Assembly: GCF_010731715.1 (NCBI RefSeq)
Contig: NZ_AP022587.1
Span: forward strand, 4,836,001 to 4,900,000
Origin: Mycobacterium stomatepiae
GTDB taxonomy: Bacteria; Actinomycetota; Actinomycetes; Mycobacteriales; Mycobacteriaceae
Direction of reading: 5' to 3'
Length of the DNA: 64,000 nucleotides
A program made the translations under genes and the position numbers. The first letter of the stretch is position 1; every line of letters starts with the position of its first letter. The notes under the pieces were generated by a model. That model was not told where the DNA came from and made no database searches. It saw only the letters and a program-made list of their open reading frames with translations. Positions 12,909-47,398 of the stretch are shown here, piece after piece.

Positions 12909-13527
12909 CTAACGGCGACATTCACTCGATGGTGATTGCGTCGGACTATCGCGTGCCCGATCCGAGCCGGGTGTGGCCACTGCTCGAACACAACAGAGCG
13001 GCGCTCTCCGACATCGGCGCGCATCACGTTCTGGTCATACCTCAACGCACGACTACGGCCGGGTCCTGGTGATGATCGGTGTGCACAGTCGTGAGCCGAT
13101 CGTGGAGTTGCTGCGATCGCGGGTCTTCTTCGACTGGTTCGACGAGGCGGGCGTCGAGGACATCCCCGCGGTCTTCGCCGGCGAGATCATCGACAGATTC
13201 ACTCCGGCGTCCGCGTCGACCCCAGAAGTCCCCGGGGTCGTGGTGGCCGCCATCGCGTCGGTCGACGATGTGTCGGCGCTGACCGCCGATGTCGGCTCGG
13301 CGATCGACAGGTTCGCTGCGGCCGGCATCCGAAAGACATGGATATTCCGGGCTTTTGACGACGACCACGAGGTATTGATCCTGCAGGAATTTCCCGATGA
13401 ACTAAGCGCGCGGCGGTGGATCGATCACCCCGACGCCGCCGCCCAATGGATGTCCGCCGCGGGCGAGGGTCCCTACCCACCGCTGTTCGTCGGCCAGTTC
13501 TCCAACATCATGCGTATCGAGGGATAA
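12905..13527 (+). pseudogene. Conserved FadD-coupled protein, frameshifted
   Basis: An ATG at 12905 overlaps the FadD stop (ATGA), so a coupled gene starts here. Its frame reads MTNGDIHSMVIASDYRVPD and on to GAHHVLV, then turns to an early stop. From about 13037 the neighbouring frame continues with TSTHDYGRVLVMIGVHSREP to a stop at 13527. Joining them with one missing base near 13037-13040 gives one coherent protein of about 207 residues. Without the repair, a shorter product might start at an internal codon. Function unknown; context suggests acyl-CoA metabolism. Confidence 0.7.
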
Positions 13528-33378: not shown

Positions 33379-34193
33379 GTGCGGTACCTCAGGGCTCGAT
33401 GTTCAAGCGCTCGAACGATCGCATCGGTCCCGATACCGAGCAGCGCGTAGATGACGAGGCAGAAGATGATGATGTCGATGCGCAGGAAGTCGCGGGCGTT
33501 GTTGATCAGGAACCCAATGCCCTTGTCCGCGTTGATCTGTTCGGCGACGATCAGGGTCAGCCACGCGATCGCCAGCGACTGCCGCAGCCCGACCAGCACC
33601 TGTGGCGCCGCACTCGGCAAGATGATGGTGCGCAGTCGCTGCCAGAGCGAAAAGCCAAGCACATCAGCGGTTTCCAGCAGTTTCGGGTCGACCTGCTTGA
33701 TCGCCGAAACGGTATTGAGGTACAGCGGGAAACTGACGCCGAGCGCGACCAGCAATACCTTCGGCAGCTCGCCGATGCCGAACCACAGGATGAACAATGG
33801 AATCAAACCCAGGTGCGGCAGTGCGCGCACCATCTGTAGTGGTGGGTCGACGGTGGCCTCGAACCACCGCGACAGCCCGACAATCACGCCTAGGGCCGCA
33901 CCGATCACGCCACCGAGCAGCAGGCCGTCGGCCACGCGCAGCCCGGATACCTGCAGGGCCTCGACGAGCTTGCCGTTGCGGATCAGTTGTAGGCCGGCAT
34001 CGAAGATCAGCTGCGGGGCCGGCAACACGTCCTGAGGGATCAGGCCGGTGGCGCTGAAAAGTTGCCACAAGCCCAACAGCCCCAGCGGTGACGAGAGTCG
34101 GATGACCGCCCAGCGGCGCTGTTTGCGCGGTCTGGTGACGGCGGCCGCCGGCGCGGCAGAGCCGACGGTCGTCTGGGCGGGAGTGCTGACCAT
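33375..34193 (-). CDS. ABC transporter permease (SsuC type)
   Basis: 272 residues from ATG 34193. Six membrane helices of the BPD_transp_1 family with the EAA-like loop (ETADVLGFSLWQRLRTIILP). The end reads IIIFCLVIYALLGIGTDAIV. It is first in the operon permease-ATPase-binding protein-ABM, an arrangement typical of sulfonate uptake. Confidence 0.9.
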   Translation of the reverse strand: MVSTPAQTTVGSAAPAAAVTRPRKQRRWAVIRLSSPLGLLGLWQLFSATGLIPQDVLPAPQLIFDAGLQLIRNGKLVEALQVSGLRVADGLLLGGVIGAALGVIVGLSRWFEATVDPPLQMVRALPHLGLIPLFILWFGIGELPKVLLVALGVSFPLYLNTVSAIKQVDPKLLETADVLGFSLWQRLRTIILPSAAPQVLVGLRQSLAIAWLTLIVAEQINADKGIGFLINNARDFLRIDIIIFCLVIYALLGIGTDAIVRALEHRALRYRT

Positions 34194-34418
34194 TGTTGGT
34201 GAAACCTCTGGGGGGAGTGGGCAAGCGCCAATGGGTTACCGGCGGCATTGCCCGGTGTAAACGCTAGGTGGGCTTGGCCAGGCCATGAAGGGTTTGGCTC
34301 CCGGTGACGGGAATGGGAAGACGGCCCGCGTGGGGTGTAGGAGAATACCGTTTCCACTTTTCGGAAGGCTGTTATACGGTTCAGTGAGCACTGTTTCCCG
34401 ACGACGGAGGATCCCTCG

Positions 34419-34832
34419 ATGCAGAAGGCACTCGCTCCTGAGATCTCGACGTGGCCCGACGAGAACCCGCAGCTGATCGGCAGCCGGTGCGGTGATTGCA
34501 GTGCCACCACCTTCCCGGTACAGCAGCGGTGCCCGCGGTGCAGCGGCGGCGCGATGAGCGACGTGTTGTTGCCGCGGACCGGAACCGTGGTCGCGTGGAC
34601 CACCCAGGGTTTCCCGCCCGGCGCCCCTTATGCCGGCCCGACCGGCAACGACTTCGTGCCGTTCGGCGTGGGTTTGGTCCAGCTGGGTGACGTGATCCGC
34701 GTCGAGGGCCGGCTGACCGAGAACGACCCGGCCAAACTCCAGTTCGGCCAGGAGGTCGAGCTCACCATGGTGCCGTTCACCACCGACGCGGACGGCAACG
34801 AGATCATCACGTTCGCTTTCCAGCCGGTCTAG
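34419..34832 (+). CDS. DUF35 (zinc-ribbon plus OB-fold) acyl-CoA-associated protein
   Basis: 137 residues with GGAGGAT upstream. The N-terminal rubredoxin-like zinc ribbon CGDC...CPRC (residues about 25-42) is followed by an OB-fold with PFGVGLVQLGDVIRVEGRL. DUF35 proteins pair with thiolase-like proteins, as in the ChsH2-Ltp2 cholesterol side-chain aldolase. The thiolase gene follows by 69 bp, supporting such a complex. Confidence 0.88.
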   Translation: MQKALAPEISTWPDENPQLIGSRCGDCSATTFPVQQRCPRCSGGAMSDVLLPRTGTVVAWTTQGFPPGAPYAGPTGNDFVPFGVGLVQLGDVIRVEGRLTENDPAKLQFGQEVELTMVPFTTDADGNEIITFAFQPV

Positions 34833-34901
34833 TGGCGATCGCGAGCACGGCGATGCCGGGTGAAGCGGGTCGGCACCATCTATCCGATAGAGGAGCCTGA
34901 G

Positions 34902-36047
34902 ATGACGAACGACGTTGCCATCATCGGCGTGGGCCTGCATCCCTTCGGCCGCTTCGATAAGACCGCGATGGAGATGGGCGCCGAGGCCATTGACGCGGCG
35001 TTGACCGATGCCGGTGTGCAGTGGAAAGACATCCAGTTCGGCTTCGGCGGCAGCCACGAAGTGTCCAACCCGGACGCGGTGACCCGCCTGGTCGGACTAA
35101 CCGGCATCACCTTCACCAACGTCTTCAACGCCTGCGCCACCGCGGCCAGCGCGATTCAGCAAACGGCCGACACGATCCGGTTGGGCAAGTACGACATCGG
35201 CATCGCCATCGGCCTGGACAAACACCCCCGCGGGGCGTTCACCGACGACCCCGGCAAGCTGGCGCTGCCGCAGTGGTACGCCCAGAACGGGCAGTTCGTC
35301 ACCACCAAGTTCTTCGGGATGAAGGCCAACAAGTACCTGCACGACCACAACATCTCGCAGGAGACGCTGGCGCGGGTGGCCAACAAGAATTTCCGCAATG
35401 GCGCATTGAACCCGAATGCCTTCCGGCGCGAGGAGATCTCCATCGACGAGATCCTCAACTCCACCGTGCTCAACTACCCGCTGACCCAGTACATGTTCTG
35501 CGCACCCGACGAGGGTGCCGCGGCCGTCATCATGTGTCGCGCCGACATCGCGCACAAGCACACCGACAAACCGGTGTATGTGCGCGCCTGCGAGATTCGC
35601 ACCCGGACCTTCGGAGCGTATGAGGTGCATGCCACGTTCGCGCCGCCGGATGAAGACGTCTCGCCGACGGTGTACGCAGCCAAGGCGGCCTACGAAGCCG
35701 CGGGTATCGGGCCCGAGGACGTCGATATTGCCCAGCTGCAGGACACCGACGCCGGCAACGAGGTCATCCACATGGCCGAGACAGGTCTGTGCGCCGACGG
35801 TGAGCAGGAGAAACTGCTGGCCGACGGCGCCACCGAGATTCACGGCTCGATGCCGGTGAACACCGACGGCGGGCTGATCGCCAACGGCGAGCCGATCGGC
35901 GCCTCGGGGTTGCGGCAAATGCACGAACTGGTGCGTCAGCTGCGCGGCGAGGCGGGCGAGCGTCAGGTGCCCGGCAACCCGCGGGTCGGCCTGGCGCAGG
36001 TGTACGGCGCTCCCGGCACCGCATCGGCGACGATCCTGTCGCTCTAA
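34902..36047 (+). CDS. Thiolase-like (SCP2-type lipid-transfer) protein
   Basis: 381 residues from ATG 34902 with GAGGAGCC upstream. Thiolase fold of the SCP2/Ltp group: VAIIGVGLHPFGRFDKTAME, NACATAASAIQQTADTIRLG (nucleophile-region Cys) and the C-terminal VNTDGGLIANGEPIGASGLRQ with a final GAPGTASATIL. The last region lacks the GHP and C-x-G motifs of true thiolases, as in retro-aldolases such as Ltp2. With the DUF35 partner it could cleave a hydroxyacyl-CoA. Its stop overlaps the stop of the ercc3 relic. Confidence 0.87.
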   Translation: MTNDVAIIGVGLHPFGRFDKTAMEMGAEAIDAALTDAGVQWKDIQFGFGGSHEVSNPDAVTRLVGLTGITFTNVFNACATAASAIQQTADTIRLGKYDIGIAIGLDKHPRGAFTDDPGKLALPQWYAQNGQFVTTKFFGMKANKYLHDHNISQETLARVANKNFRNGALNPNAFRREEISIDEILNSTVLNYPLTQYMFCAPDEGAAAVIMCRADIAHKHTDKPVYVRACEIRTRTFGAYEVHATFAPPDEDVSPTVYAAKAAYEAAGIGPEDVDIAQLQDTDAGNEVIHMAETGLCADGEQEKLLADGATEIHGSMPVNTDGGLIANGEPIGASGLRQMHELVRQLRGEAGERQVPGNPRVGLAQVYGAPGTASATILSL

Positions 36048-36130
36048 AGCGCCGGTCCCAGAAGGTCATCCGCGTCGCGAACGATGTAGCCATAGCCCTG
36101 CACGGTCAGGAAGTCCTGTCGGTGTTCAGC
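36044..36130 (-). pseudogene. Relic of the 3' end of an ercc3 (XPB helicase) gene
   Basis: 28 codons plus a TAG stop on the minus strand. They end in QGYGYIVRDADDLLGPAL, against QGYGYIIRDADDLLGPAI at the end of intact ercc3 (43489). Over 68 aligned bases I count 57 identities. The stop overlaps the thiolase stop, so the thiolase gene once abutted an ercc3 3' end here. No ercc3 sequence lies further upstream. Confidence 0.85.
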
Positions 36131-36192
36131 GACTGAGATCGAATAGATCGGGTGTCAGCGGATCTCGAAATCTTTGATGTCGAGTTGGGTCG

Positions 36193-36612
36193 TTAGTTAT
36201 CCAGTCCGGAGCCGATGTAGGCAACCGCGACGAGTTCGATGCGGCCATGCGGGAGCGCTACTACCTGGTACGTCGACCGCGGCGGAAACGGCGCCGCGAA
36301 GAGCTCGGCTTGTACCGCGTTGAGGGTTCGGAGGTCGCTCAAGTCTGTCAGCATGGCAGTGAGCATCACGATGTCCTTGAGGCTGGCACCAGCCTCGAGG
36401 CAAATCGCCTCAAGGTTGCGGAAGGCTTGTCGGATTGCCGCTTCGGGGCTCTCGTCGACGACACGTTGCTCGTGCTGATTGGTGGCGAGTGTGCCCCCGA
36501 TGTAAACGATGTGGCCGATTCGCACCACCTGCGAGAAATTGCCGATGTTGATGCCCGCGTTGTCGGGCGCATCCGCGGCGTGGACGAAACGCTGTGTCGG
36601 AACGTTATTCAT
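36193..36612 (-). CDS. RidA (YjgF/UK114) family protein
   Basis: 139 residues from ATG 36612. RidA fold: GINIGNFSQVVRIGHIVYIG, AIRQAFRNLEAICLEAGASL, and the substrate-Arg segment FPPRSTYQVVALPHGRIELV. RidA enzymes hydrolyse reactive enamine/imine intermediates, and some relatives are 2-aminomuconate deaminases. It has its own promoter-like TTGACA with a palindrome over the -10, and the ATG lies at or near the predicted transcript start. Last gene of the island. Confidence 0.87.
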   Translation of the reverse strand: MNNVPTQRFVHAADAPDNAGINIGNFSQVVRIGHIVYIGGTLATNQHEQRVVDESPEAAIRQAFRNLEAICLEAGASLKDIVMLTAMLTDLSDLRTLNAVQAELFAAPFPPRSTYQVVALPHGRIELVAVAYIGSGLDN

Positions 36613-36618
36613 AGCATC

Positions 36619-36648
36619 ATTGGTACCAATGCCGTTGTCCTCTGTCAA
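36619..36648 (-). promoter_or_regulatory. Promoter with operator before ridA
   Basis: On the minus strand, a perfect -35 TTGACA (36648-36643), a 17-nt spacer and TACCAAT as -10 (from 36626). The -10 lies within the perfect 12-bp palindrome ATTGGTACCAAT (36619-36630). A start point near 36613 would make the ridA mRNA leaderless. The palindrome would suit the GntR regulator of the island. Confidence 0.5.
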
Positions 36649-36665
36649 TTGATGCTGTCTGTGAA

Positions 36666-36681
36666 TTATGTTGCGACATAA
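36666..36681. promoter_or_regulatory. Palindrome upstream of ridA promoter
   Basis: Perfect arms TTATGT and ACATAA around TGCG. The rest of 36613-36918 (306 bp between ridA and the hydrolase gene) shows no gene that I can support. Confidence 0.35.
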
Positions 36682-36918
36682 CATCTTTCGTACTCTCCTT
36701 ACAAATTCATGTTTACGAGAACACTTCTCAGATCTAGCTGTCCCATCGGAACACGTTTTGTGCAACGGTTTATGCCGCTACGAAAGTGGCTAGAACTCGC
36801 AGCGGCGCCGATGGTTTCTGCGTTTCCGCTCACTGGACTACTCAGCAGCGGCCAAGGTTCGGACTAAGAGGCCGGGCTGCTGTCCTTGAAAGTCGCGATA
36901 ACGGACGGCTACGCGCAG

Positions 36919-37629
36919 CTATATCAGTCCGTGAATAAAAGTGCTTATGGCAGAGGCTACTTCGTTCTTGTCATAGTCGATGGTCGCGAGATGCCCTCCT
37001 TTTTCGAGAAGGACGGTCGACGTGTCAGGCATCGTCGCGGAAAGATGGTCTGCTGCAGCAGTCGCGTCGAGAACGTCGTCGTTGCGGCTTGCCAGGATGA
37101 GAGTGGGGATCTTGATGGCGGATAGGGAGGGCTGAACTTCGTCGACAGCGTCGAGCGCTGAGAGGAAGGATGCAATGGGAACGGCTCCGTAGTCCGCGGC
37201 GGAGACTTGGGGGTCCTTGATATCTCCGCCGAAAGGCGTAAGCAGCGTCTCGCCCCTGGCAACCGCCTCTCGAAGCTGCCGTTTTAAATCTGGTGTGGGG
37301 CAAATAAGTGGGTTGATCAGTACGAGGCCGCGGATGTGTTCTTGCAACGGCGTGGCGAGTGTTAGAGCGAGAGTGGCGCCCATCGAGAGACCGATCACAA
37401 CCAGCGAGTTTGATCTGTCAAGCGTCTCTGTTGCAGCACTTTGAGCTTTGGCGAGCCAGTCGTCCCACGTGGTGCCGTACATATCGGCAAGGACCGTGCC
37501 GTGGCCGGGCAGTGTTGGTGTCGAGCAAAGATAGCCGAGCTCCGATAGGTGTTCGGGCAGCTCACCGAATATCTTGGGGTTTCCGGTGAGTCCGTGTAGG
37601 AGGAGGATTGCCGGTTTTGAGGGGGTCAT
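36919..37629 (-). CDS. Alpha/beta hydrolase (carboxylesterase/monoacylglycerol-lipase type)
   Basis: 236 residues from ATG 37629 with AAAAGGAG upstream. Catalytic triad: Ser in GLSMG, Asp in SRNDDVLD, His in KGGHLATIDYD; oxyanion loop LLLHGLTGNP. The size and motifs fit Est30-like esterases. A gap of 213 bp separates it from the RraA gene. In the island it could open an ester, lactone or amide. Confidence 0.88.
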   Translation of the reverse strand: MTPSKPAILLLHGLTGNPKIFGELPEHLSELGYLCSTPTLPGHGTVLADMYGTTWDDWLAKAQSAATETLDRSNSLVVIGLSMGATLALTLATPLQEHIRGLVLINPLICPTPDLKRQLREAVARGETLLTPFGGDIKDPQVSAADYGAVPIASFLSALDAVDEVQPSLSAIKIPTLILASRNDDVLDATAAADHLSATMPDTSTVLLEKGGHLATIDYDKNEVASAISTFIHGLI

Positions 37630-37842
37630 GGTTGTACTCCTTTTGAGGTTCCGACCGTCGGTTGTTGACGGTCTGCTGGCGATGTGACTCGTACTACGTG
37701 AGCCGGGGTGGGCGAAGGCATAGGCGATCGCCCTCGTTGCGACGGGCAGTACGCCGCTTTCGGGTAACTCCTACCGATGCTGGTTAGTCGGGGTGACCGA
37801 TTATGAGACGCCACAGCGCTTTAAGGCCGGACGCGATAAGCA

Positions 37843-38520
37843 TCAAACATGTCCGAATCTGGCAAGGCACTCCTGCAGAGAGAAGCCTTCGGCGATTGCT
37901 TGCCGCACAAGCACTTCGGCGCTGGTGAGCGCCTCAGCACGGACAAGTACGCGGTCGATCAGCTTTGCCGGGATGACTAAGGCGCCGTCGGCGTCAGCGT
38001 GAATGAAGTCACCAGGGTTCACAGTGACGTGATGGGTGGTCGCCCCGGGCAGGTAGACGGGTTGGTTGTAGTGGGTGACTTTCCATCGTCGGATGGACTG
38101 AATGGGCGATCGGTAGCGACCAAACACGGGAAAGCCATGTTTGCGTAGCCATTTGAGATCACGTACGCCTCCGTCGACGATTGCTCCGACAGCACCGCGT
38201 TCTGCCATTCCGAGGGCAATGAGTTCTCCGAAGTAGCAGATACCAACGCCTGCTCCCGACCATACGGTGATGTCACCCGGAGATATGTCGGCACATGCCG
38301 CCATTTTGGTGGGGTCGCCATCGCCGGTGTAGGGCAACATCGCACCGGAAATGGTGAATGCCCATCCGGCAAGAGAGTCTCCAGCCAGCGCGCCTAGCGC
38401 CGGGTCGAGACCTTGGTCGTGGTAACCGAGTTCGTCGAGGACATCACCCACGTTCGACGTATCGATTGCCAAGAACCGTGTTCGGATGGTTTCGCGTTGT
38501 TCAGCGGTGGTGGTGTTCAT
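37843..38520 (-). CDS. RraA-like / 4-hydroxy-4-methyl-2-oxoglutarate aldolase family protein
   Basis: 225 residues from ATG 38520. RraA/HMG-aldolase fold with the motif GAVGAIVDGGVRDLKWL (metal and substrate Arg-Asp) and PGDFIHADADGALVIP. Family members cleave 4-hydroxy-2-oxo acids to pyruvate or decarboxylate oxaloacetate. In this cluster a role late in a ring-degradation path is plausible. N-terminus DTSNVGDVLDELGYHDQ is typical. Confidence 0.85.
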   Translation of the reverse strand: MNTTTAEQRETIRTRFLAIDTSNVGDVLDELGYHDQGLDPALGALAGDSLAGWAFTISGAMLPYTGDGDPTKMAACADISPGDITVWSGAGVGICYFGELIALGMAERGAVGAIVDGGVRDLKWLRKHGFPVFGRYRSPIQSIRRWKVTHYNQPVYLPGATTHHVTVNPGDFIHADADGALVIPAKLIDRVLVRAEALTSAEVLVRQAIAEGFSLQECLARFGHV

Positions 38521-38557
38521 CGATGAGTAGGTCCTTCCATGCTTCGGGAATGGTCGG

Positions 38558-39343
38558 TCAGATACTGGGAATGAGTCCGTCGTCGACGCGGAGGATGGAT
38601 CCTGTGATGTAAGAGGCGCGAGCGCTGGCCAAAAAGGCTACGGCAGCACCGTATTCGGCGGGATTCCCATAACGACCGAGGGGAATGGCAGCGGTACTTG
38701 CCGCAGCCACGTCTTCGACCGTGGTGCCGTCACGTTCCGCTTTGGCTTCGTCAAGTGCGGTGATTCGGCCGGTAGCGATACGACCCGGGACAACAATATT
38801 GCTGTTGACGCCGTCGCGACCAATCTCTGCGGCAAGAGTCTTTGACCACCCTGCCAGGGATGCGCGCAAGGAGTTCGATAGTGCGAGGTTGGGAATTGGG
38901 CAGGTGATTCCTGACGACGTGCTGGTGATGATGCGGCCCCACCGGCGGCGGCGCATCGCAGGTAGTACGGCGGCGGTGGCGGTAACGACCGGGATGACCA
39001 GAGCATTGAACCAGGTGTTCCAGTCGGCGCCGGCGATCTCAGTGGCCGCTATTGGCGGAGGACCGCCGGTGTTGTTGACCAGAATGTCTACATCGCCGTA
39101 CCGATGCGGCAGGTCAGCGAGCATCTCGGACAAGCTTGTAGCATCAGTGAAGTCAACAACTAGGGGAGTGAAGTCGAGCTTCTCATCGCTTATCGACGCC
39201 GAAACTGCGGTAAGAGATTCAGCGTTGCGATCGGCGCCGAGCACGCGGACACCTTCACGCGCTAGCGCCAATGCGATGGCTCCGCCGAGTCCGCCCCCGG
39301 CGCCGGTGACAAGGGCGACCTTATCGATTATTCCGAAATCCAT
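38558..39343 (-). CDS. Short-chain dehydrogenase family protein lacking the usual Tyr/Lys
   Basis: 261 residues. SDR Rossmann start VALVTGAGGGLGGAIALALA, NNTGG in place of NNAG, and the Ser region IITSTSSGI. The expected YxxxK is replaced: the segment reads ALSNSLRASLAGWSKTLA, so the catalytic Tyr is Leu and the Lys is absent. A known SDR subgroup has such LSNxLR sequences, but the mechanism is unclear. Same strand, 24 bp after the aspartate-dehydrogenase-like gene. Confidence 0.85.
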   Translation of the reverse strand: MDFGIIDKVALVTGAGGGLGGAIALALAREGVRVLGADRNAESLTAVSASISDEKLDFTPLVVDFTDATSLSEMLADLPHRYGDVDILVNNTGGPPPIAATEIAGADWNTWFNALVIPVVTATAAVLPAMRRRRWGRIITSTSSGITCPIPNLALSNSLRASLAGWSKTLAAEIGRDGVNSNIVVPGRIATGRITALDEAKAERDGTTVEDVAAASTAAIPLGRYGNPAEYGAAVAFLASARASYITGSILRVDDGLIPSI

Positions 39344-39367
39344 AATATGCCTTCAATAATCGGAGAA

Positions 39368-40195
39368 TTAGGTTGCCAGGCGCAGCGTGGCCGCTGTTTT
39401 GGCGAGGTGGGCTACCACGCTTTGAGCGGTGATTCGGCCTGTTTTGGGGTTCTCGGTGGGGATGTTTGCAATGCGGATGTGTAGATCAGCGGAATCCGAG
39501 CGCATGTCCACGATATGGGTATTGCGGTCAACTGTGGGGTCGGCCCACACCCGCAAGGTGGTCTTGTCCGGTCCGATCCCGGCGAGGGAAAGTGCCACGG
39601 CGACATTGAGATTGGCCGGGAATCCGGTGGCCGCTTGGCGAGCGTTTCCCTCGAAAAGCAGCATCGGTTCACGCAATGAGCGCAGCTCGTCGTCGCGACC
39701 GCGCAGGTAGGGGGCGCCGATCAAGCTTGCGATCGGTTTGCGCGTGGTCATCGTGACTTCGAAGATGGTGCCGTGAGCTGCCGCCTGGACTGCGTCCAAT
39801 CCCGCGATCGCTCCGGAGGGCACGCTGATAACGGCTCCGGTTTGGTGAGCGCGCTCAACCAGGCTCCAATGTTCCAGCAGTGCACTCGAACTCAGGACGA
39901 CAAGACGCTTTCCTGCCTCGATAGTTGGTGTGGCGATCGTGGTGAACAGGGATGCCGGCGCGCATTCGATCACGAGGTCAGAGCAGGGTTCGATCTGGTC
40001 GGCATCCACCACGGGGACTGGTGAGGTAAGCGTTCGGGAGAAGTCTTCAGCGAGCTTGGTGCGCCGGGCGCTGATCGCGGATAGACGGTAGCCGGCGATG
40101 CCTTTGTCGATAGCTCGGGCCACAACGCTTCCGACAGGTCCGAGCCCGACGATTCCGACGCGGAGGGGATTCGGGGTGGTGACGGAGGCAGTCAT
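39368..40195 (-). CDS. L-aspartate dehydrogenase-like NAD(P)-dependent oxidoreductase
   Basis: 275 residues from ATG 40195, overlapping the amidase stop. NAD fold VGIVGLGPVGSVVARAI; NadX-type active region SGAIAGLDAVQAA, ANLNVAVALSLAG and DRNTHIVDM with the conserved His. NadX oxidises L-aspartate to iminoaspartate, or runs in reverse to aminate an oxo-acid. In a catabolic island it may remove or handle amino nitrogen. Substrate unproven. Confidence 0.82.
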   Translation of the reverse strand: MTASVTTPNPLRVGIVGLGPVGSVVARAIDKGIAGYRLSAISARRTKLAEDFSRTLTSPVPVVDADQIEPCSDLVIECAPASLFTTIATPTIEAGKRLVVLSSSALLEHWSLVERAHQTGAVISVPSGAIAGLDAVQAAAHGTIFEVTMTTRKPIASLIGAPYLRGRDDELRSLREPMLLFEGNARQAATGFPANLNVAVALSLAGIGPDKTTLRVWADPTVDRNTHIVDMRSDSADLHIRIANIPTENPKTGRITAQSVVAHLAKTAATLRLAT

Positions 40196-41608
40196 TGGTT
40201 GCTTTCGAGTGCAGGGGCAGGGATGGGAAGGATTGACGTCGAACACTTTTGGAAGGCAGCTGCCACGGTGAGGACTGTTTGGTCGGCAAATGGTCTTCCG
40301 GCAAGTTGCAGGCCTACGGGCAAGCCATCGGCGTCGGTGCCCGCTGGGACGGTGATGGCCGGAAGGCCGAGGAAACTAAACGGGCGTGTCGTGCGCAGCA
40401 GGCGTGACGTCGTCTGCGCGGCATCTTCGGTCGCGGCGACGATGGTAGGGGCGGTGTCCGACGTCGTATTGGTTGCGAGGACATCACGCTCGTCAAAGAC
40501 CGTGTTGAGGAACCGTGCAAGCGAAACGCCCTGGGCGCACAACGCCCGTACGTGATCCGCGCTGCTGGTGACGAACGCGTGATGCAGTCGCGATCGTATT
40601 GCCGCGGGATAGTCGTTGGCGGCATTACCGAAATGGTCTCCGTGAACCGCTGCTGCTTCACACCAGGTCAGTAGTGATCCGGCTCGGTCATAGTCTCGAA
40701 GCGGTCTCAGATCCACTTCGACGAGTTGTGCACCCATGGATTCCAAGAGCTCCCAGGACGCTTCGATGTTGGTGGCTATGTCTGGGCTTGACTTCTCACG
40801 CAGGTAGGCAGAATCGATGCCGATTCTTGTGTTGTGCAAGTTGGCATCTACTTGTGCCAGCGGCTGGATTGGTCGGCACTTGATGGATGCCGGGTCTGCC
40901 GGATCGTGCTCGGCCATCACCGCTAGCGCGAGGGCTACATCCTGCACCGTCCGAGCGATGATGCCGATGGTGTCTTGGGACTGAGACAACGAGATTGCAC
41001 CCCGCCGCGATATGCGCCCAAATGTGGGTTTGAAACCGACCACGCCACACAGAGCAGCGGGAATTCTGACTGAGCCCCCCGGTGTCGCTGCCGATCGCGA
41101 TGGGTACCGCACCGCTTGCGACGACTGCGGCCGACCCGCTCGATGATCCACCGGCAATGCGAAGTGGGTCGAAAGGATTGCGCACGTGGCCGTGGTGGGT
41201 GTTGAGTCCCGTTGCCAAGTAACCGTAGGGGTCGAGGTTGAGCCGGCCCAGCGTGATTGCGCCTGGACTATCGAGCTGGTCGAGGCATGGTGTGTCATCG
41301 TCTGCGGTTCGTAGCGATGAACGGCTCACTCCTAGCCCGGCTGGTTGTCCGTTACGCGTGAACATGTCCTTATACGCATAGGGGACACCGGCTAGCGGTA
41401 ATGATTGCGGGATAGGCGTTTTCATAACCTGATCTATCCGCGCTGCCACATGACGCGCTCCTCGCTCGTCGAGACTAACGAAACAGTTCGTCGACGCCTG
41501 TGCTAGCTGGCTGGCTTCTATCGCGGACTCGACCACCTCGGTGGCGCTTAGGGTTTGGGAGCGCACGCCGGCGCAGATCTCGACGGCAGTCAATGGTTGT
41601 CGGCTCAC
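40192..41608 (-). pseudogene. Amidase (GatA/AtzE type), frameshifted
   Basis: From GTG 41608 the amidase-signature protein is intact through Lys (PYAYKDMFTR), GGSSSGSAAVVASG and SDTGG. There the run of six C on the plus strand (41075-41080) shifts the frame. One base fewer gives SDTGGSVRIPAALCGVVGFK and continues to the natural end at 40192 (GLPVGLQLAGRPFADQT). All Ser-cisSer-Lys residues are present. Coupled by GTGA to the AtzG-like gene and by ATGA to the next. Either a pseudogene, a slippage-controlled gene or a sequence error. Confidence 0.85.
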
Positions 41609-41811
41609 GCGCTCGCCTCACGTCTGAGGAGTTCCCGGAATTGCCCGATCTCCAGCAGGGCTGTTTCGTCTTTGATCATCGAATTCACGGTTGAGCGAAC
41701 GGATCGGATTGTCGAGCTGATTCGGGCAGCTTCAGAGTCATCGACGATCACGCCATGCTCTTGCAGTATCGGGCGGATGCTGGCGGATCCTGATGCGTCG
41801 TAGTCAGTCAT
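41605..41811 (-). CDS. AtzG/GatC-like small subunit of the amidase
   Basis: 68 residues from ATG 41811, overlapping genes on both sides. A short helical protein with ILQEHGVIVDDSEAARISS and NSMIKDETALLEIGQFREL. Small GatC-like proteins (AtzG, DUF4089 type) are encoded just before AtzE-type amidases and bind them. The position and helix pattern fit this, but similarity is weak. Confidence 0.5.
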   Translation of the reverse strand: MTDYDASGSASIRPILQEHGVIVDDSEAARISSTIRSVRSTVNSMIKDETALLEIGQFRELLRREASA

Positions 41812-42716
41812 GAACGCGCCGCATCCGGAGGCGGACAGAGGTGGGTGCGGTAGTAATCGGCGATTCCGCCGGGTGTGGTGAACCACACGGATTCTCGTTG
41901 GCGTTGTATATGTTCCAAGGCCCGTCGGAAGTGGTGCAACCGGAACGGCTGGCCGACGATGAAAGTATGTATCGAGATACCAAGTACGAGGGGCTGTTCC
42001 AACGATTGTTGCCGCATCTCGTCGAATGATGCGACGACCATATCGGCAAATTTGTCCGCGCTGCCATGATGCAGGACGACCATCGGTACGTCGTTGACTT
42101 CATGGGGGTAGGGAACGCTGAGAAGTGGGCCGGTACGGGTGTTGAGCCAAACTGGTTGGTCGTCCATCGGCCAATCCAACGTGTATCGAAACCCACGCTC
42201 TGCCAAGAGGTCCTCGGTGATTGCGCTCGGATTGGCGCCGGGACTCATCCACCCTTGGGGTGGGTGCCCCTCGTAATGTGTGATCTTTGCAAAGGTTTCA
42301 TCGATGATGGCTCTTTCGGCATCTTCATCCAGCCCGTTTGGATGGATTGAGTTCGTTCGGCCATGCGCAACAAATTCCGCCCCTTGTCCGCGGAACCGGT
42401 CCATTAGTGCTGGGGCATGCTCGTAGGCGGCGGTGTTCAGGAGCACGGTCGGTGCGATCCCGTACTGATCGAGAAGATCTGCGATTCGGAAGCCGCCTAC
42501 TCTGTTCCCGTAGTCCCGCCATGCCCAGTTGTAGGTATTGGGGTGATCGAGCCCGGGCGAGTAAGACAAACCCAACCCATCCTCGTTGTACGAGAAGTGT
42601 TCCGCATTAACGGCCACATATAGGGCCAGGCGTTTGCCGTCCGGCCAGCAGAAGTCCGGCCGATCAACTATTGCCGAGTACTTGAAGCGGCCGTGGGTGG
42701 GCAGCGCAGGCATCAT
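41808..42716 (-). CDS. Polysaccharide deacetylase family (PuuE/allantoinase-like) hydrolase
   Basis: 302 residues from ATG 42716. NodB-like fold: DFCWPDGKRLALYVAVNAEHF at the start (as in PuuE allantoinases), GVRTN-type region HGRTNSIHPNGL, GWMSPGANPSAITEDLL, and the later His in GISIHTFIVGQP. PuuE-type members open cyclic amides such as allantoin rather than chitin. Overlaps both neighbours by ATGA. It is likely an early hydrolytic step of the island pathway. Confidence 0.85.
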   Translation of the reverse strand: MMPALPTHGRFKYSAIVDRPDFCWPDGKRLALYVAVNAEHFSYNEDGLGLSYSPGLDHPNTYNWAWRDYGNRVGGFRIADLLDQYGIAPTVLLNTAAYEHAPALMDRFRGQGAEFVAHGRTNSIHPNGLDEDAERAIIDETFAKITHYEGHPPQGWMSPGANPSAITEDLLAERGFRYTLDWPMDDQPVWLNTRTGPLLSVPYPHEVNDVPMVVLHHGSADKFADMVVASFDEMRQQSLEQPLVLGISIHTFIVGQPFRLHHFRRALEHIQRQRESVWFTTPGGIADYYRTHLCPPPDAARS

Positions 42717-43399
42717 CGTTCTCCGTATGCTTGGGCGATTTGAGCGCGTTCTTGGATCGCGCGTAAATGTGCGGCCATTGCCGTCTTGGCCCCTTCGGCG
42801 TCCGCCGCGGCGATCGCGTCAACGATCGCCCCGTGCTCAGCGATAGGCGCGCCCAGCCCGCCCAGCCGTCTGGCTGTCTTGACTGTCTGCTCGAACTGAA
42901 GCTCGCGAAGCTGACTGATCAATCGCACGTGCAGTGAATTCCCGGTCATCTCGGCGATCGCCGTGTGAAAGCGGAGGTCGTTGCGCACCCACGTCACGAC
43001 GTCGGCGTCCTCGCTGTTGGTTGCCGCTAATTCGAGCAGCTGATCCAGCTGCTTAGTGCTCCTGCGCTGTGCTGCCAGACCGGCGCCAGGGACCTCCAGC
43101 ATCGATCGCACCTCAAAGAACTCGGTAGAGGTTGTTCTACCAAGTAGGGACAACCCTGCGTCGGTACCGGTCGCACTGGTAACGAATGTCCCTGCTCCCG
43201 AACGGCTCTCGATCATTCCTGCCGCACGCAGCCCGCCGAGGGCTTCGCGGAGCACCGGGCGAGACACGCCGAACGACCGAGCCAAGGCGATCTCCCCCGG
43301 CAGCCGATTTCCCACCGCGAAGTGCCCCGACCGAATCAGCGTGACCAGCTCGTCTCGTACCGCGGTCGCCGACGTCGTCCGCCGGATGGGCGCCGGCAT
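42713..43399 (-). CDS. GntR family (FadR subgroup) transcriptional regulator
   Basis: 228 residues from ATG 43399. GntR winged helix: NRLPGEIALARSFGVSRPVLREALGGLRAAGMIESR. The FCD ligand domain follows with metal-binding His (LRFHTAIAEMTGN, then EHGAIVDAIAA). First gene of the island operon and probably its ligand-responsive repressor. Confidence 0.9.
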   Translation of the reverse strand: MPAPIRRTTSATAVRDELVTLIRSGHFAVGNRLPGEIALARSFGVSRPVLREALGGLRAAGMIESRSGAGTFVTSATGTDAGLSLLGRTTSTEFFEVRSMLEVPGAGLAAQRRSTKQLDQLLELAATNSEDADVVTWVRNDLRFHTAIAEMTGNSLHVRLISQLRELQFEQTVKTARRLGGLGAPIAEHGAIVDAIAAADAEGAKTAMAAHLRAIQERAQIAQAYGER

Positions 43400-43428
43400 G
43401 GTGGGCGATTGGTCCTGGATCTGTCAAA

Positions 43429-43439
43429 CTGTAATACAG
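43429..43439. promoter_or_regulatory. Candidate GntR operator
   Basis: CTGTA-A-TACAG, perfect arms, 30 bp upstream of gntR, containing the GT-N3-AC core common for FadR-type regulators. A half-site ATTGGT at 43408-43413 recalls the palindrome before ridA. Confidence 0.4.
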
Positions 43440-43488
43440 CGTTACCGGAATCGCAAAACTAACCGCTGCCGAAGTATCGTTTCGCTCC

Positions 43489-45138
43489 CTAAATCGCGGG
43501 GCCCAGAAGGTCGTCCGCGTCCCGGATGATGTAGCCGTAGCCCTGCTCGGCCAGGAAGCGTTGTCGATGGGCGGCATATTCGGCATCCAGGCTGTCGCGG
43601 GCCACCACGGAGTAGAAGATGGCGCCACCGCCGTCGGCCTTGGGTCGCAGCAGCCGGCCCAGCCGTTGCGCCTCCTCCTGACGCGAGCCGAAGGTACCCG
43701 AAACCTGAACCGCCACTGAGGCTTCCGGCAAGTCGATGGAGAAGTTGGCGACCTTGGACACCACCAGCGTCCTTATCTCGCCGGTGCGGAAGGCGTCGAA
43801 CAACGCCTCGCGTTCCTTGGTCTTGGTGGAGCCCTGGATCACCGGGGCATTCAGCTCGGTGCCGAGCTCGTCGAGCTGGTCGAGATAGGCGCCGATCACC
43901 AGGGTCTGCTCGTCCGGATGCTTGGCCAGAATCGACTTGACCACAGCGATTTTCGTGTGCACCGTCGAGCACAGCTTGTAACGCTCTTCGGGTTCGGAGG
44001 TGGCGTAGATCATTCGCTCGTTGTCGGTCATCGTGACCCGGACTTCGACACACTCCGCCGGGGCGATCCAGCCCTGCGCCTCGATGTCCTTCCATGGCGC
44101 GTCGTATCGCTTCGGGCCGATCAGCGAGAACACGTCTCCCTCGCGGCCGTCTTCGCGGATCAGCGTGGCGGTCAGGCCGAGCCGCCGCTTGGACTGCAAG
44201 TCGGCCGTCATCCGGAACACCGGCGCCGGCAGCAGGTGCACCTCGTCGTAGACGATCAGCCCCCAGTCGCGGCTGTCGAAGAGTTCCAGATGCGTGTATT
44301 CGCCCTTACTGCGGCGGGTGATCATCTGGTACGTCGAGATGGTGACGGGCCGAATCTCCTTGCGTTCGCCCGAGTATTCGCCGATTTCGTCTTCGGTCAG
44401 CGAGGTGCGCGCGATGAGTTCGCGTTTCCATTGCCGGGCGGCGACGATGTTGGTGACCAAGATCAGCGTCGTCGCACTGGCTTTCGCCATCGCGGCCGCG
44501 CCTACCAACGTCTTGCCGGCACCACACGGAAGCACCACCACCCCGGAGCCACCGGCCCAGAACGAGTCGGTGGCCAGCCGCTGGTAATCGCGTAGCTCCC
44601 AGCCGTCGGGCTCCAGGCTGATCGGATGCGCCTCGCCGTCGACGTAACCGGCGAGATCCTCTGCGGGCCAACCGATCTTGAGCAGCATCTGCTTGACCCG
44701 GCCGCGCTCGCTGCCGTGCACGATGACGGTGTCGTCGTCGATCCGGGCGCCGAGCATCGGTGCGATCTTCTTGTTGCGCAGCACCTCCTCGAGCACCGCA
44801 CGATCCAGGCTCACCAGGGTCAGGCCGTGCGCCGGGTTTTTGACCAGCTGCAGCCGGCCATACCGGGCGATCGTGTCGACGATGTCGACCAGCAATGGCT
44901 GCGGCACCGCGTAGCGCGAGAAACTGACCAGCGCGTCGACGACCTGCTCGGCGTCATGGCCCGCGGCGCGCGCGTTCCACAGCGCCAGGGGAGTGATGCG
45001 GTAGGTGTGCACGTGTTCGGGTGCGCGCTCGAGCTCCGCGAATGGCGCAATGGCGGCGCGTGCCGCGTCGGCCAGTTCGTGGTCCACTTCCAGCAGCACC
45101 GTCTTATCGGACTGCACGATCAACGGTCCGTCGGTCAT
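43489..45138 (-). CDS. ercc3: XPB-type DNA helicase
   Basis: 549 residues from ATG 45138 (the Rv0861c type is about this long). SF2 motifs: Walker A LPCGAGKTLVGAAA, DEVH box (LIVYDEVHLL), motif III GLTATLIREDG, and motif VI QEEAQRLGRLLRPKADG. A 3'-5' helicase of nucleotide-excision-repair type. It lies next to the gene for a helicase-domain protein, probably its partner. Its 3' end borders the catabolic island and has a relic copy at 36044. Confidence 0.94.
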   Translation of the reverse strand: MTDGPLIVQSDKTVLLEVDHELADAARAAIAPFAELERAPEHVHTYRITPLALWNARAAGHDAEQVVDALVSFSRYAVPQPLLVDIVDTIARYGRLQLVKNPAHGLTLVSLDRAVLEEVLRNKKIAPMLGARIDDDTVIVHGSERGRVKQMLLKIGWPAEDLAGYVDGEAHPISLEPDGWELRDYQRLATDSFWAGGSGVVVLPCGAGKTLVGAAAMAKASATTLILVTNIVAARQWKRELIARTSLTEDEIGEYSGERKEIRPVTISTYQMITRRSKGEYTHLELFDSRDWGLIVYDEVHLLPAPVFRMTADLQSKRRLGLTATLIREDGREGDVFSLIGPKRYDAPWKDIEAQGWIAPAECVEVRVTMTDNERMIYATSEPEERYKLCSTVHTKIAVVKSILAKHPDEQTLVIGAYLDQLDELGTELNAPVIQGSTKTKEREALFDAFRTGEIRTLVVSKVANFSIDLPEASVAVQVSGTFGSRQEEAQRLGRLLRPKADGGGAIFYSVVARDSLDAEYAAHRQRFLAEQGYGYIIRDADDLLGPAI

Positions 45139-45145
45139 GCGTCCA

Positions 45146-47398
45146 TTATCCGTTCTCCGCCGACACCACCGACGTGATGCGGTGGATCGCGAAGTCGCGC
45201 AGCCGTCCCGACGCCGAATCGAAGGCCACCAGCTGTCCGCCACGTACGGCGATCGGCGACACCATCCGCTGGCTCGCGACGCCCGCCGCGTCGAGGTAAC
45301 CGATCACCAGCGTGTCCTGATTCCTGGCCGCGTCGGCCAGCAGCGATATCGCGATCGCCGGGTCGACACGGCTACTGCCGAACGGCGCCGTGGTCACCTT
45401 GCGCAGCACCGACACCACCGCGTTGAGCGTCTCGGTGTTGGGCCGCGGGGCCCCGCGGTAGGGCCGACGTTGCTTCGGCGTGGGCACCCGCGCCCGCCGC
45501 GGGCGGACGTCGACGATGGCGCCGGTGGAATCCTCGGCGGCCGGAGCGAAACCCGCTGCCCGCAGCGCGGCGAGCACTTCGGCGATCGGCGCGGGGGACA
45601 CGGCCACCGTCGGCGCCAGCGCCCGCAGCTGCAGGTCCTCACCGGCCGCCACCGCCTGGGCCAGCAGCGCCGGGTCCTCGCAACGCACGAACGACGCGGC
45701 CATGCCGATGCGAAGTTGGCCGTGTCGGCGCGCCACGTCGTCGATCAGGTAGGTGAGTCCTTGTGGCACAGGCGTTTTCGAGTGGTTGGCGAAAAAGGCG
45801 TGCATCCAGTCGCGAGTCTTGCCGATGTCGAGCGCGTGGCGGATCGACTGCTCGCTGATCCGGTACACCATCGCCGCCCCGGCGGACTCGACGTTGGCCA
45901 CCGTCGCCAATTCGTCGGCGAGATCGCGTTGCAGGGGCCCGGGCACGACGACGGTCAGGTCGGCCTGCATCAGGAAGTGGTCGACCGGTTTGGGCAGTGC
46001 TCGCGCCATCACGTCGACCGCGGCGGAGAAGTCGATGGTTTCGGCCAGCAGTTCGCGCCCGGGCGTGCTGATCGCCCCGCGGCCCACCAAGCCCAGCGCG
46101 TGACTTTCGGCCAGCAGGTCGCCCATCGGCCCCGGCTGCAGGCGCCGGGTCCACCGTGGGCGGCGCCAGATCAGTGCCGCCGACGCCGTCGTCGCGTCGA
46201 CGCCGGCGCCCGGCGGCAGGTCGGCAAGCATGTCCAGCAGCAACCGCCGGTCCAGCGGGGCCGCCGTCGAGTACAACGAATCCGATAGGGCCGCATACGG
46301 TTTGCCATCGGGGCCGCGGCCACCGATCAGCGCCGGGCGGCTCGAAAGATCAAGCCAGGCGGTGGCCAGCAGGTGCCAGCGCTCGGCGGCGGACATCGCG
46401 CCGAAGCGGTCGGCGGCCACCGTCGGCGCCCAATATAGGCCGTCGGCATGCTCCGGTTCCGGATCGGGCGTGCCGTTGGCGATCAGCCCGGCCGCCGCCG
46501 CTACCTCGAGTACCAGGCCCAGTCGCGGCTCGTCGATGCCGGTCGCTTTGGCGAGCCGCTTGACTTCGCGCACCCCCAGACCGCCGCTACGCAATTCGGA
46601 AACTGTTGTGGTACCGAGGTTTTCGAGCAGCACGTCGAATTCGCGCAACAGGTCGATGACGGCTCCGGCCGCCGCGGCGTCGACGTCGCCGGGTGTGGTC
46701 GTCGACACCACCGGGTCGGGTGCTGTGAGCTGCATCGGGCCGGGCTGCTCGCCGCGCAGCACCTGTGCGACGTGGCGGGGCAAGATCACTGTCTCTGCGT
46801 CGACCCGTCGCAGCAGCCCGATCGCGAGCAGCTGCGGCACCGGCCGCTCCGCGGGCGCGCCGGGCGCAGCGTCGCGGGTGCGCCCCATCGGGGATCCTTC
46901 GAGCAGCTTGTCGAGCACTTCCCGCTGCGCCTGGTTCAGCCCGTCGATCAGCTCCGAAATCTGTGCCCCGGTGCGCGACGCGTCCTCGAGCGTCACCTGT
47001 CCCGGGTGCCACGGCAACGCCATGCCGGTGTCGGCAGCCAGCCGCGTCGCGGCATCTCCCCACACCAGGGCACGTCGGCGCAGGTCGTCCAGCGCGTCGA
47101 TCACGTCGGCCTCGGGAGCGCGGTCGCCGATGAGCGCCAGCAGCTTCGCCGTCGGCACCGGCGCGGTGTCCGCGTGCAATACCAGCAGCGCGTCGAGCAC
47201 CGCCAGCCGCAGGAAGTCGAGCTCGTCGGTGGCAGCCTTGACCGACTGACGGGCCTCAGCGCGCGCGGCCAGGGCCGCGATGCTGCCGGGTGGCGGCTGG
47301 GCAAGGTCCGGCCGCAGTTCCAGCAGTTGGATCAGCCGCTCGTCGGGCAAGTCGGCCAGCCAGGACCCCAGCGGGATATCCGGGGTGTTGTCGGTCAT
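45146..47398 (-). CDS. Helicase-associated (XPB/Ssl2-like) domain protein
   Basis: 750 residues from ATG 47398, 7 bp upstream of ercc3. Matches Rv0862c in order and size. The C-terminal third contains a helicase conserved C-terminal-like domain ('Helicase_C_3': ADLTVVVPGPLQRDLADELA, EQSIRHALDIGKTRDWMHAF, LTYLIDDVARRHGQLRIG). No Walker motifs. Probably the partner of the XPB helicase in repair. Confidence 0.88.
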   Translation of the reverse strand: MTDNTPDIPLGSWLADLPDERLIQLLELRPDLAQPPPGSIAALAARAEARQSVKAATDELDFLRLAVLDALLVLHADTAPVPTAKLLALIGDRAPEADVIDALDDLRRRALVWGDAATRLAADTGMALPWHPGQVTLEDASRTGAQISELIDGLNQAQREVLDKLLEGSPMGRTRDAAPGAPAERPVPQLLAIGLLRRVDAETVILPRHVAQVLRGEQPGPMQLTAPDPVVSTTTPGDVDAAAAGAVIDLLREFDVLLENLGTTTVSELRSGGLGVREVKRLAKATGIDEPRLGLVLEVAAAAGLIANGTPDPEPEHADGLYWAPTVAADRFGAMSAAERWHLLATAWLDLSSRPALIGGRGPDGKPYAALSDSLYSTAAPLDRRLLLDMLADLPPGAGVDATTASAALIWRRPRWTRRLQPGPMGDLLAESHALGLVGRGAISTPGRELLAETIDFSAAVDVMARALPKPVDHFLMQADLTVVVPGPLQRDLADELATVANVESAGAAMVYRISEQSIRHALDIGKTRDWMHAFFANHSKTPVPQGLTYLIDDVARRHGQLRIGMAASFVRCEDPALLAQAVAAGEDLQLRALAPTVAVSPAPIAEVLAALRAAGFAPAAEDSTGAIVDVRPRRARVPTPKQRRPYRGAPRPNTETLNAVVSVLRKVTTAPFGSSRVDPAIAISLLADAARNQDTLVIGYLDAAGVASQRMVSPIAVRGGQLVAFDSASGRLRDFAIHRITSVVSAENG

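Follow-up and report, generated by a model that had tools for sequence, protein, structure and literature searches.

An eight-gene island between two copies of the ercc3 3' end in Mycobacterium stomatepiae and two other mycobacterial genomes

Genomic islands that carry an integrase often integrate at the 3' ends of genes. The locus described here belongs to the complete 6.2-Mb genome of Mycobacterium stomatepiae: within a stretch of 64,000 nucleotides of contig NZ_AP022587.1 (hereafter the window, whose own numbering is used throughout), eight genes, all on the minus strand, form an island between the intact 3' end of ercc3, encoding the XPB helicase, and an orphan copy of that end (the relic) beside a thiolase-like gene. 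As in integrase-type islands, the site is a gene 3' end, the gene has been kept whole and a second copy of the end is present; unlike them, this locus has no recombinase, no fixed core and no transfer RNA (tRNA) target. In PMC5361080, homology-facilitated illegitimate recombination is proposed for displaced gene 3' ends at Vibrio type VI secretion system (T6SS) loci. In those loci, as in ours, a former gene 3' end is left behind downstream of the insert; ours differs in that the two ends were almost identical at the outset, that the gene, which encodes a repair helicase, ends in a stop-stop overlap, and that we saw no donor arrangement. In mycobacteria, distributive conjugal transfer moves mosaic donor tracts of ~0.05-250 kb and can import non-homologous DNA, according to PMC3706393. 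The ~10-kb tract and the 96-bp patch reported below lie within that size range; what is seen here is a sequence footprint between species.

Our favoured account, to which we give a probability of about 0.6, is a single insertion of a foreign operon that duplicated the ercc3 end, followed by spread through homologous recombination. With neighbouring species as a trail, the locus shows how metabolic genes organized as an operon can come to lie in a junction of core genes with no recombinase in sight, and can afterwards move from one slow-growing mycobacterium to another through ordinary recombination. As far as the literature searched shows, the locus is apparently undescribed; the part of PMC6015043 accessible to us makes no mention of the island.

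The orphan ercc3 end and the junction beside thiolase

The relic is a direct repeat of the intact ercc3 end (36044-36124 and 43489-43569; 81 bp, 83% identity). The two share 67 of 81 bases, while elsewhere in ~15 kb of nearby window DNA, read on that strand, the intact end reached at best 40 of 81 in ungapped alignment, so that a chance repeat is not a fair explanation. The relic reads open over 28 residues followed by a stop (AEHRQDFLTVQGYGYIVRDADDLLGPAL; the intact end reads AAHRQRFLAEQGYGYIIRDADDLLGPAI and a stop), and its own stop (CTA, 36044-36046) overlaps that of the thiolase (TAA, 36045-36047). The aligned repeat measures 81 bp in the window, 88 bp in G273 and 64 bp in G166, the two other genomes that carry the island; its limit in the window was placed near 36131 by eye. 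A sequence-only reading of the window had already recognized the second C-terminus, which proved real. It had counted 57 equal bases in 68; the similarity stood, although we found 58. Its estimate of about 11 bp for the longest exact match was accurate, as this was 11 bp in the window; across the three carriers it ranged over 11-13 bp at differing places. An identical core at both island ends was therefore not found, for which decay after insertion may account.

A survey of 396 genomes of the genus, drawn from a larger group, gave some match to island DNA in 287, nearly all of them short or at the level of single genes. The near-whole island was present in three: the window, G166 (94% identity over the longest piece) and G273 (91%). 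One scoring pass left 166 of the 396 genomes unscored, of which 160 were searched separately and 6 were left out. In G166 and G273 the island occupies the same locus in the same orientation as in the window, with both ercc3 ends present, and the three carriers have both junctions in common (at the left end GAGATCGAATA; before the intact ercc3 stop AGTATCG(T/C)TTCGCTCC). At the protein level, a search with the PuuE-like hydrolase returned full-length matches of at least 91% from the window itself, M. shigaense (95%) and M. montefiorense (91%), together with entry P0009, whose alignment covered 67% of the query at 100% identity; after these, the best match stood at 74%. The surroundings of ercc3 were read at the returned loci (at most 30 per search), at the best 80 of at least 579 named matches, and in separately fetched regions; one genome may appear twice in the resulting ercc3 and junction rows. 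Among 205 ercc3 rows, many of which reach only ~1.5 kb beyond the gene, a long second ercc3 end was seen only in the three carriers, with scores of 83-92 as against 37 for the next best.

The composition of the island is foreign to its host. Its GC content is 59.5%, between flanks of 64.8% (left) and 68.8% (right), and at third codon positions the values are 62-76% in the seven island genes measured, whereas the thiolase, ercc3 and the helicase gene after it reach 86-88%.

Thiolase and ercc3 lay tail to tail in 84 rows (2 of them carriers), representing 75 distinct junctions. Four distinct junctions (G240, G081, G097 and G265) show the 4-bp stop overlap with no insert; the gap was 0-100 bp in 51 rows and at least 104 bp in the remainder. 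The presence of these empty sites in four relatives implies that the island entered a junction of this kind and left an ercc3 end orphaned. The sequence-only reading had proposed that ercc3 once ended beside the thiolase and that the island came in there, and had advised looking for thiolase directly next to ercc3 and for the same island elsewhere; the empty sites and the two further carriers bear this out.

The thiolase-ercc3 junction behaves as a variable cassette site. In many genomes (L242, L244, L245, L247, L248, L249, L253, L146 and others) it is occupied by a gene for a flavin adenine dinucleotide (FAD)-dependent monooxygenase, sometimes together with a second small gene. A second cargo, a short-chain dehydrogenase (SDR) gene in inserts of ~0.9 kb, lies at the same junction in G139 and G250 (L163 and L161). 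There the order is thiolase stop, an exact copy of the ercc3 end of 15 or 14 bp in the 4-bp-overlap register, insert and ercc3. As these two genomes are close kin (94.6% identical in the right flank, the next being about 84%), they count as one event; among the sampled genomes there was no closely related empty site for this cargo. Weaker copies of the ercc3 end stand beside the FAD-monooxygenase gene in G187 and G099 (13/14 and 12/14, read by eye with a one-base shift). No copy with a run of at least 8 occurred in any of the 51 short-gap rows. By eye, similar short repeats with CACGTTCGGCG were also seen on both sides of the FAD-monooxygenase insert in G300 and G384 (L247 and L248).

Exchange of the locus between lineages

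One tract of ~10 kb, made up of the thiolase, the relic, the island and the greater part of ercc3, is common to the lineages of the window and G166, against their flanks. Of the 21 bins of 500 bases between positions 34500 and 44999, 20 showed an identity of 90.6-97.4% between the two genomes and the remaining one 85.4%, as compared with 72.7-85.8% outside, and differences at fourfold sites fell from 0.41 in the flanks to 0.08 in the thiolase, 0.11 in the island and 0.11 in ercc3. The trees conflict accordingly. The right flank joined G166 with G265 (support 100/100) and the window with G387 (94/96), whereas the thiolase and ercc3 trees each joined the window with G166 (100/100). Approximately unbiased (AU) tests rejected a G166 + G265 clade for ercc3 at p 1.2e-4 and for thiolase at 8.4e-7, and a window + G166 clade for the right flank at 6e-38. 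The 5' end of ercc3 in G166 was again nearest to G265, narrowly (24 differences in 306, the next 26). Together, the bins, the tree conflict, the AU tests and the sharp drop in divergence identify a between-species tract that moved by homologous recombination. The transfer most likely went from the window's clade to the lineage of G166, since that clade is where the thiolase and ercc3 of the tract are both placed. The sequence-only reading had left the choice between an element and homologous recombination; recombination holds for this later spread, while an integrase-type element found no support, as discussed below.

The relation to G273 is less sharply drawn, and any transfer between its lineage and that of the window is put forward with descent as the competing explanation. 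Differences at fourfold sites between these two genomes were 0.201 (0.178-0.225) in the island and 0.322 (0.294-0.352) in the outer flanks, two intervals that stand apart and argue against inheritance of the island from a forebear common to the window and G273, with loss or replacement in the relatives between them and recombination only into G166. Under such inheritance, the rejection of a window + G273 clade in the right flank (p 1.8e-4) would require several losses. On the other hand, a clade of the three carriers was not rejected in ercc3 (p 0.196) or in thiolase (p 0.137), and the intervals for thiolase, 0.269 (0.202-0.337), and ercc3, 0.271 (0.215-0.336), both overlap that of the island. 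We regard inheritance as a serious possibility, at less than even odds.

How the island may have entered

In the account that we favour, an operon of foreign composition would have inserted once, in a mycobacterium of the M. simiae complex, at a thiolase-ercc3 junction with the 4-bp overlap. In the process ~88 bp at the ercc3 3' end would have been duplicated, which kept both genes whole: ercc3 retained one end and the other was orphaned beside the thiolase. Joining would have been illegitimate, by end joining or similar, and probably not driven by an integrase. Because a stop-stop overlap cannot be opened harmlessly in any other way, surviving insertions must duplicate; only duplicating insertions would then survive, and extra duplicated length would be carried along. 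This filter would explain why a copy of the ercc3 end also stands beside the unrelated SDR cargo at the same junction, and the overlap thereby offers a testable reason for the survival of duplicating insertions. Afterwards the island would have spread by homologous recombination in the flanking core genes. An orphan gene end is a marker with which such insertions can be sought in any genome set.

The distance of the nearest recombinases, the lack of inverted repeats and the differing repeat lengths led us to infer a recombinase-free illegitimate insertion with target duplication. The nearest match to the tyrosine recombinase family PF00589 lies about 472 kb away and the nearest to the serine recombinase family PF00239 about 478 kb, in agreement with the sequence-only reading, which had noted that no integrase was present. 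Neither a transposase among the island genes of the window nor a site-specific recombinase among the annotated island genes was found. For terminal inverted repeats at the island ends the best score was 7, shuffled sequences averaging 6.4 with a maximum of 12. A search of the window for tRNA genes returned none, and there was no match to Rfam families in 34000-46000.

As regards the source of the two ends, the majority sequence of the three relics differed from the intact end of G273 at 1 of 63 decided sites and from those of G133, G187, G384 and L190 at 2 each; against 168 distinct ends the median was 9 differences, and the seven non-mycobacterial ends showed 13-23. The relic majority and the majority of the three carriers' intact ends likewise differed at 1 of 63 bases, both being of the local-clade type. 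These near-identical majorities imply a common local starting sequence for the two ends, through duplication in place or import from close kin, between which the sequences cannot tell. The sequence-only reading had the island arrive with a foreign ercc3 3' end; the near-identity speaks against this for a distant source. The relic is also no recent duplicate of the window's own ercc3, as that reading had allowed for: it differs from the window's intact end at 10 of 70 bases and from that of G273 at 5.

The last 96 bp of the intact ercc3 gene deserve separate mention. The window and G166 differ there at 14 positions, while the adjoining 1204 bp contain 36 differences (p 5.8e-6), a value reached by none of 43 control pairs of like background. 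The corresponding counts were 13 and 76 for window and G387 (p 0.011) and 11 and 77 for window and G133 (p 0.053), and the ercc3 end of G273 showed no excess of divergence in its last 96 bp. This excess implies one or more exchanges of the stretch in the lineage of the window or of G166, and in the window it is possibly a short patch imported from another mycobacterium. Recent gene conversion of the patch from the relic was considered and not seen, given the 10 differences in 70 between the window's two ends.

Several points weigh against a single insertion with duplication in place. The closest relatives of the window have an FAD-monooxygenase insert or a spacer rather than the exact overlap, and G387, its sister in the right-flank tree, is among the FAD-monooxygenase carriers. 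The genomes with the second cargo, being close kin, supply one event only. The duplicated end could stem from close kin rather than have arisen in place. The border of the 96-bp patch lies near the length of the relic, which the model does not predict and for which we have no firm explanation. Finally, many of the 205 ercc3 rows span only ~1.5 kb beyond the gene, so that second ends farther away would escape.

The main rival is one-sided homology with DNA from close kin. In this scheme of homology-facilitated illegitimate recombination, the incoming DNA would have come from a close relative in which the island already lay downstream of ercc3; it would have recombined within ercc3, and a non-homologous joint 88 bp before the recipient stop would have displaced the old 3' end. 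The anatomy fits, and displaced 3' ends of this type are those proposed for the Vibrio T6SS loci in PMC5361080; the divergent last 96 bp, with a border near 96 bp, could be the one-sided imported stretch, and are seen in the window and G166 and not in G273. Against it, none of the 396 genus genomes showed the island downstream of ercc3 as a donor arrangement, the intact end of G273 is of the local type, and the proposal relocates the first insertion without explaining it. We therefore consider it unlikely, although it is the strongest competitor for the mechanism.

That the ercc3 end was doubled first, with the island entering the duplicated stretch later, seems improbable: the sequence gives no order for the two events, yet no non-carrier among the 205 rows, within the reach of each row, had a long second end. 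An integrative element that used the ercc3 3' end as its attachment site, its recombinase bringing a replacement 3' end and being lost later, would suit the orientation, the gene 3' end and the use of the same junction by another cargo, but is the least probable explanation in view of the nearest PF00589 and PF00239 matches more than 470 kb off with none in the island, a repeat length of 88 bp in one cargo versus 14-15 bp in the other, inverted repeats no better than in shuffles, and a sole mobile-element gene seen in the carriers' islands, that for an IS3-like transposase of G166, which lies at a distance from the island ends.

More tentatively, overlapping stops of convergent core genes may act as a general filter on recombinase-free insertions, with cargo landing repeatedly at the junction, each time with a duplication of 14-88 bp of the ercc3 end, and the resulting allelic forms of the locus (empty, FAD-monooxygenase, SDR or catabolic island) then passing between species through recombination in the flanking genes; this broader proposal is doubtful. 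A dedicated process producing such long target duplications may lie behind the repeated landings.

Island content and minor observations

Table 1. Coordinates of the features of the locus in the window.
Feature	Coordinates	Strand	Remark
Shared tract	34600..44830 (approximate)		High identity with G166, lost in the flanks; ends are estimates from bins of 500 and of 48 bases
Thiolase-like (lipid-transfer) gene	34860..36047	+	Stop overlaps relic stop, in the 4-bp register of the empty sites
Relic (orphan ercc3 3' end, about 88 bp)	36044..36131	-	Direct repeat of intact end
Island	36132..43488		Between relic and intact ercc3 end
RidA family (PF01042)	36193..36612	-	
Alpha/beta hydrolase	36919..37629	-	
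RraA-like (aldolase/oxaloacetate decarboxylase family)	37843..38520	-	
Short-chain dehydrogenase (SDR)	38558..39343	-	
L-aspartate dehydrogenase	39368..40195	-	Alternative start 40246 used in some analyses
Amidase	40192..41608	-	Two frames in window; one frame of 471 aa in both other carriers
PuuE/allantoinase-like hydrolase (polysaccharide deacetylase family)	41808..42716	-	
GntR/FCD regulator	42713..43399	-	
ercc3 (XPB helicase), intact	43489..45138	-	
Last 96 bp of intact ercc3	43489..43584	-	Unusually divergent in window and G166

The features are listed in Table 1. The split amidase of the window is either a broken gene or a sequencing error. We would guess that the operon degrades a nitrogen compound of cyclic or ureido type, through aspartate, iminosuccinate, oxaloacetate and pyruvate as intermediates. 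A reading as a defence system was rejected, RidA alone matching part of one PADLOC model. A possible repeat of the thiolase tail ahead of the stop of intact ercc3 matched at 9, 8 and 9 of 11 bases in the carriers; as other loci reach 9, we make no claim for it. Promoter- and terminator-like sites in 35900-43700 were fewer than in shuffled sequences.

The islands of the other carriers differ in small ways. G166 has ~1.27 kb of extra DNA near RidA (L141 12822-13862, matching the window at ~36637) with an integrase-core (rve) IS3-like transposase frame, the only mobile-element gene seen in the island of any carrier. In G273, ~0.13 kb is added between the regulator and the ercc3 stop (L142 ~12947-13079), and short stretches are missing at other places in its island.

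A relative of six genes of the operon occurs in another Mycobacterium (G401, L144 181-14794), with 43-62% protein identity and the same order of GntR, PuuE-like, amidase, aspartate dehydrogenase, SDR and RraA genes; unlike the island, it lies on a contig other than that of the genome's ercc3. Ethanolamine ammonia-lyase genes and an amino-acid permease gene stand upstream of it, and a gene for a purine/allantoin-type permease downstream.

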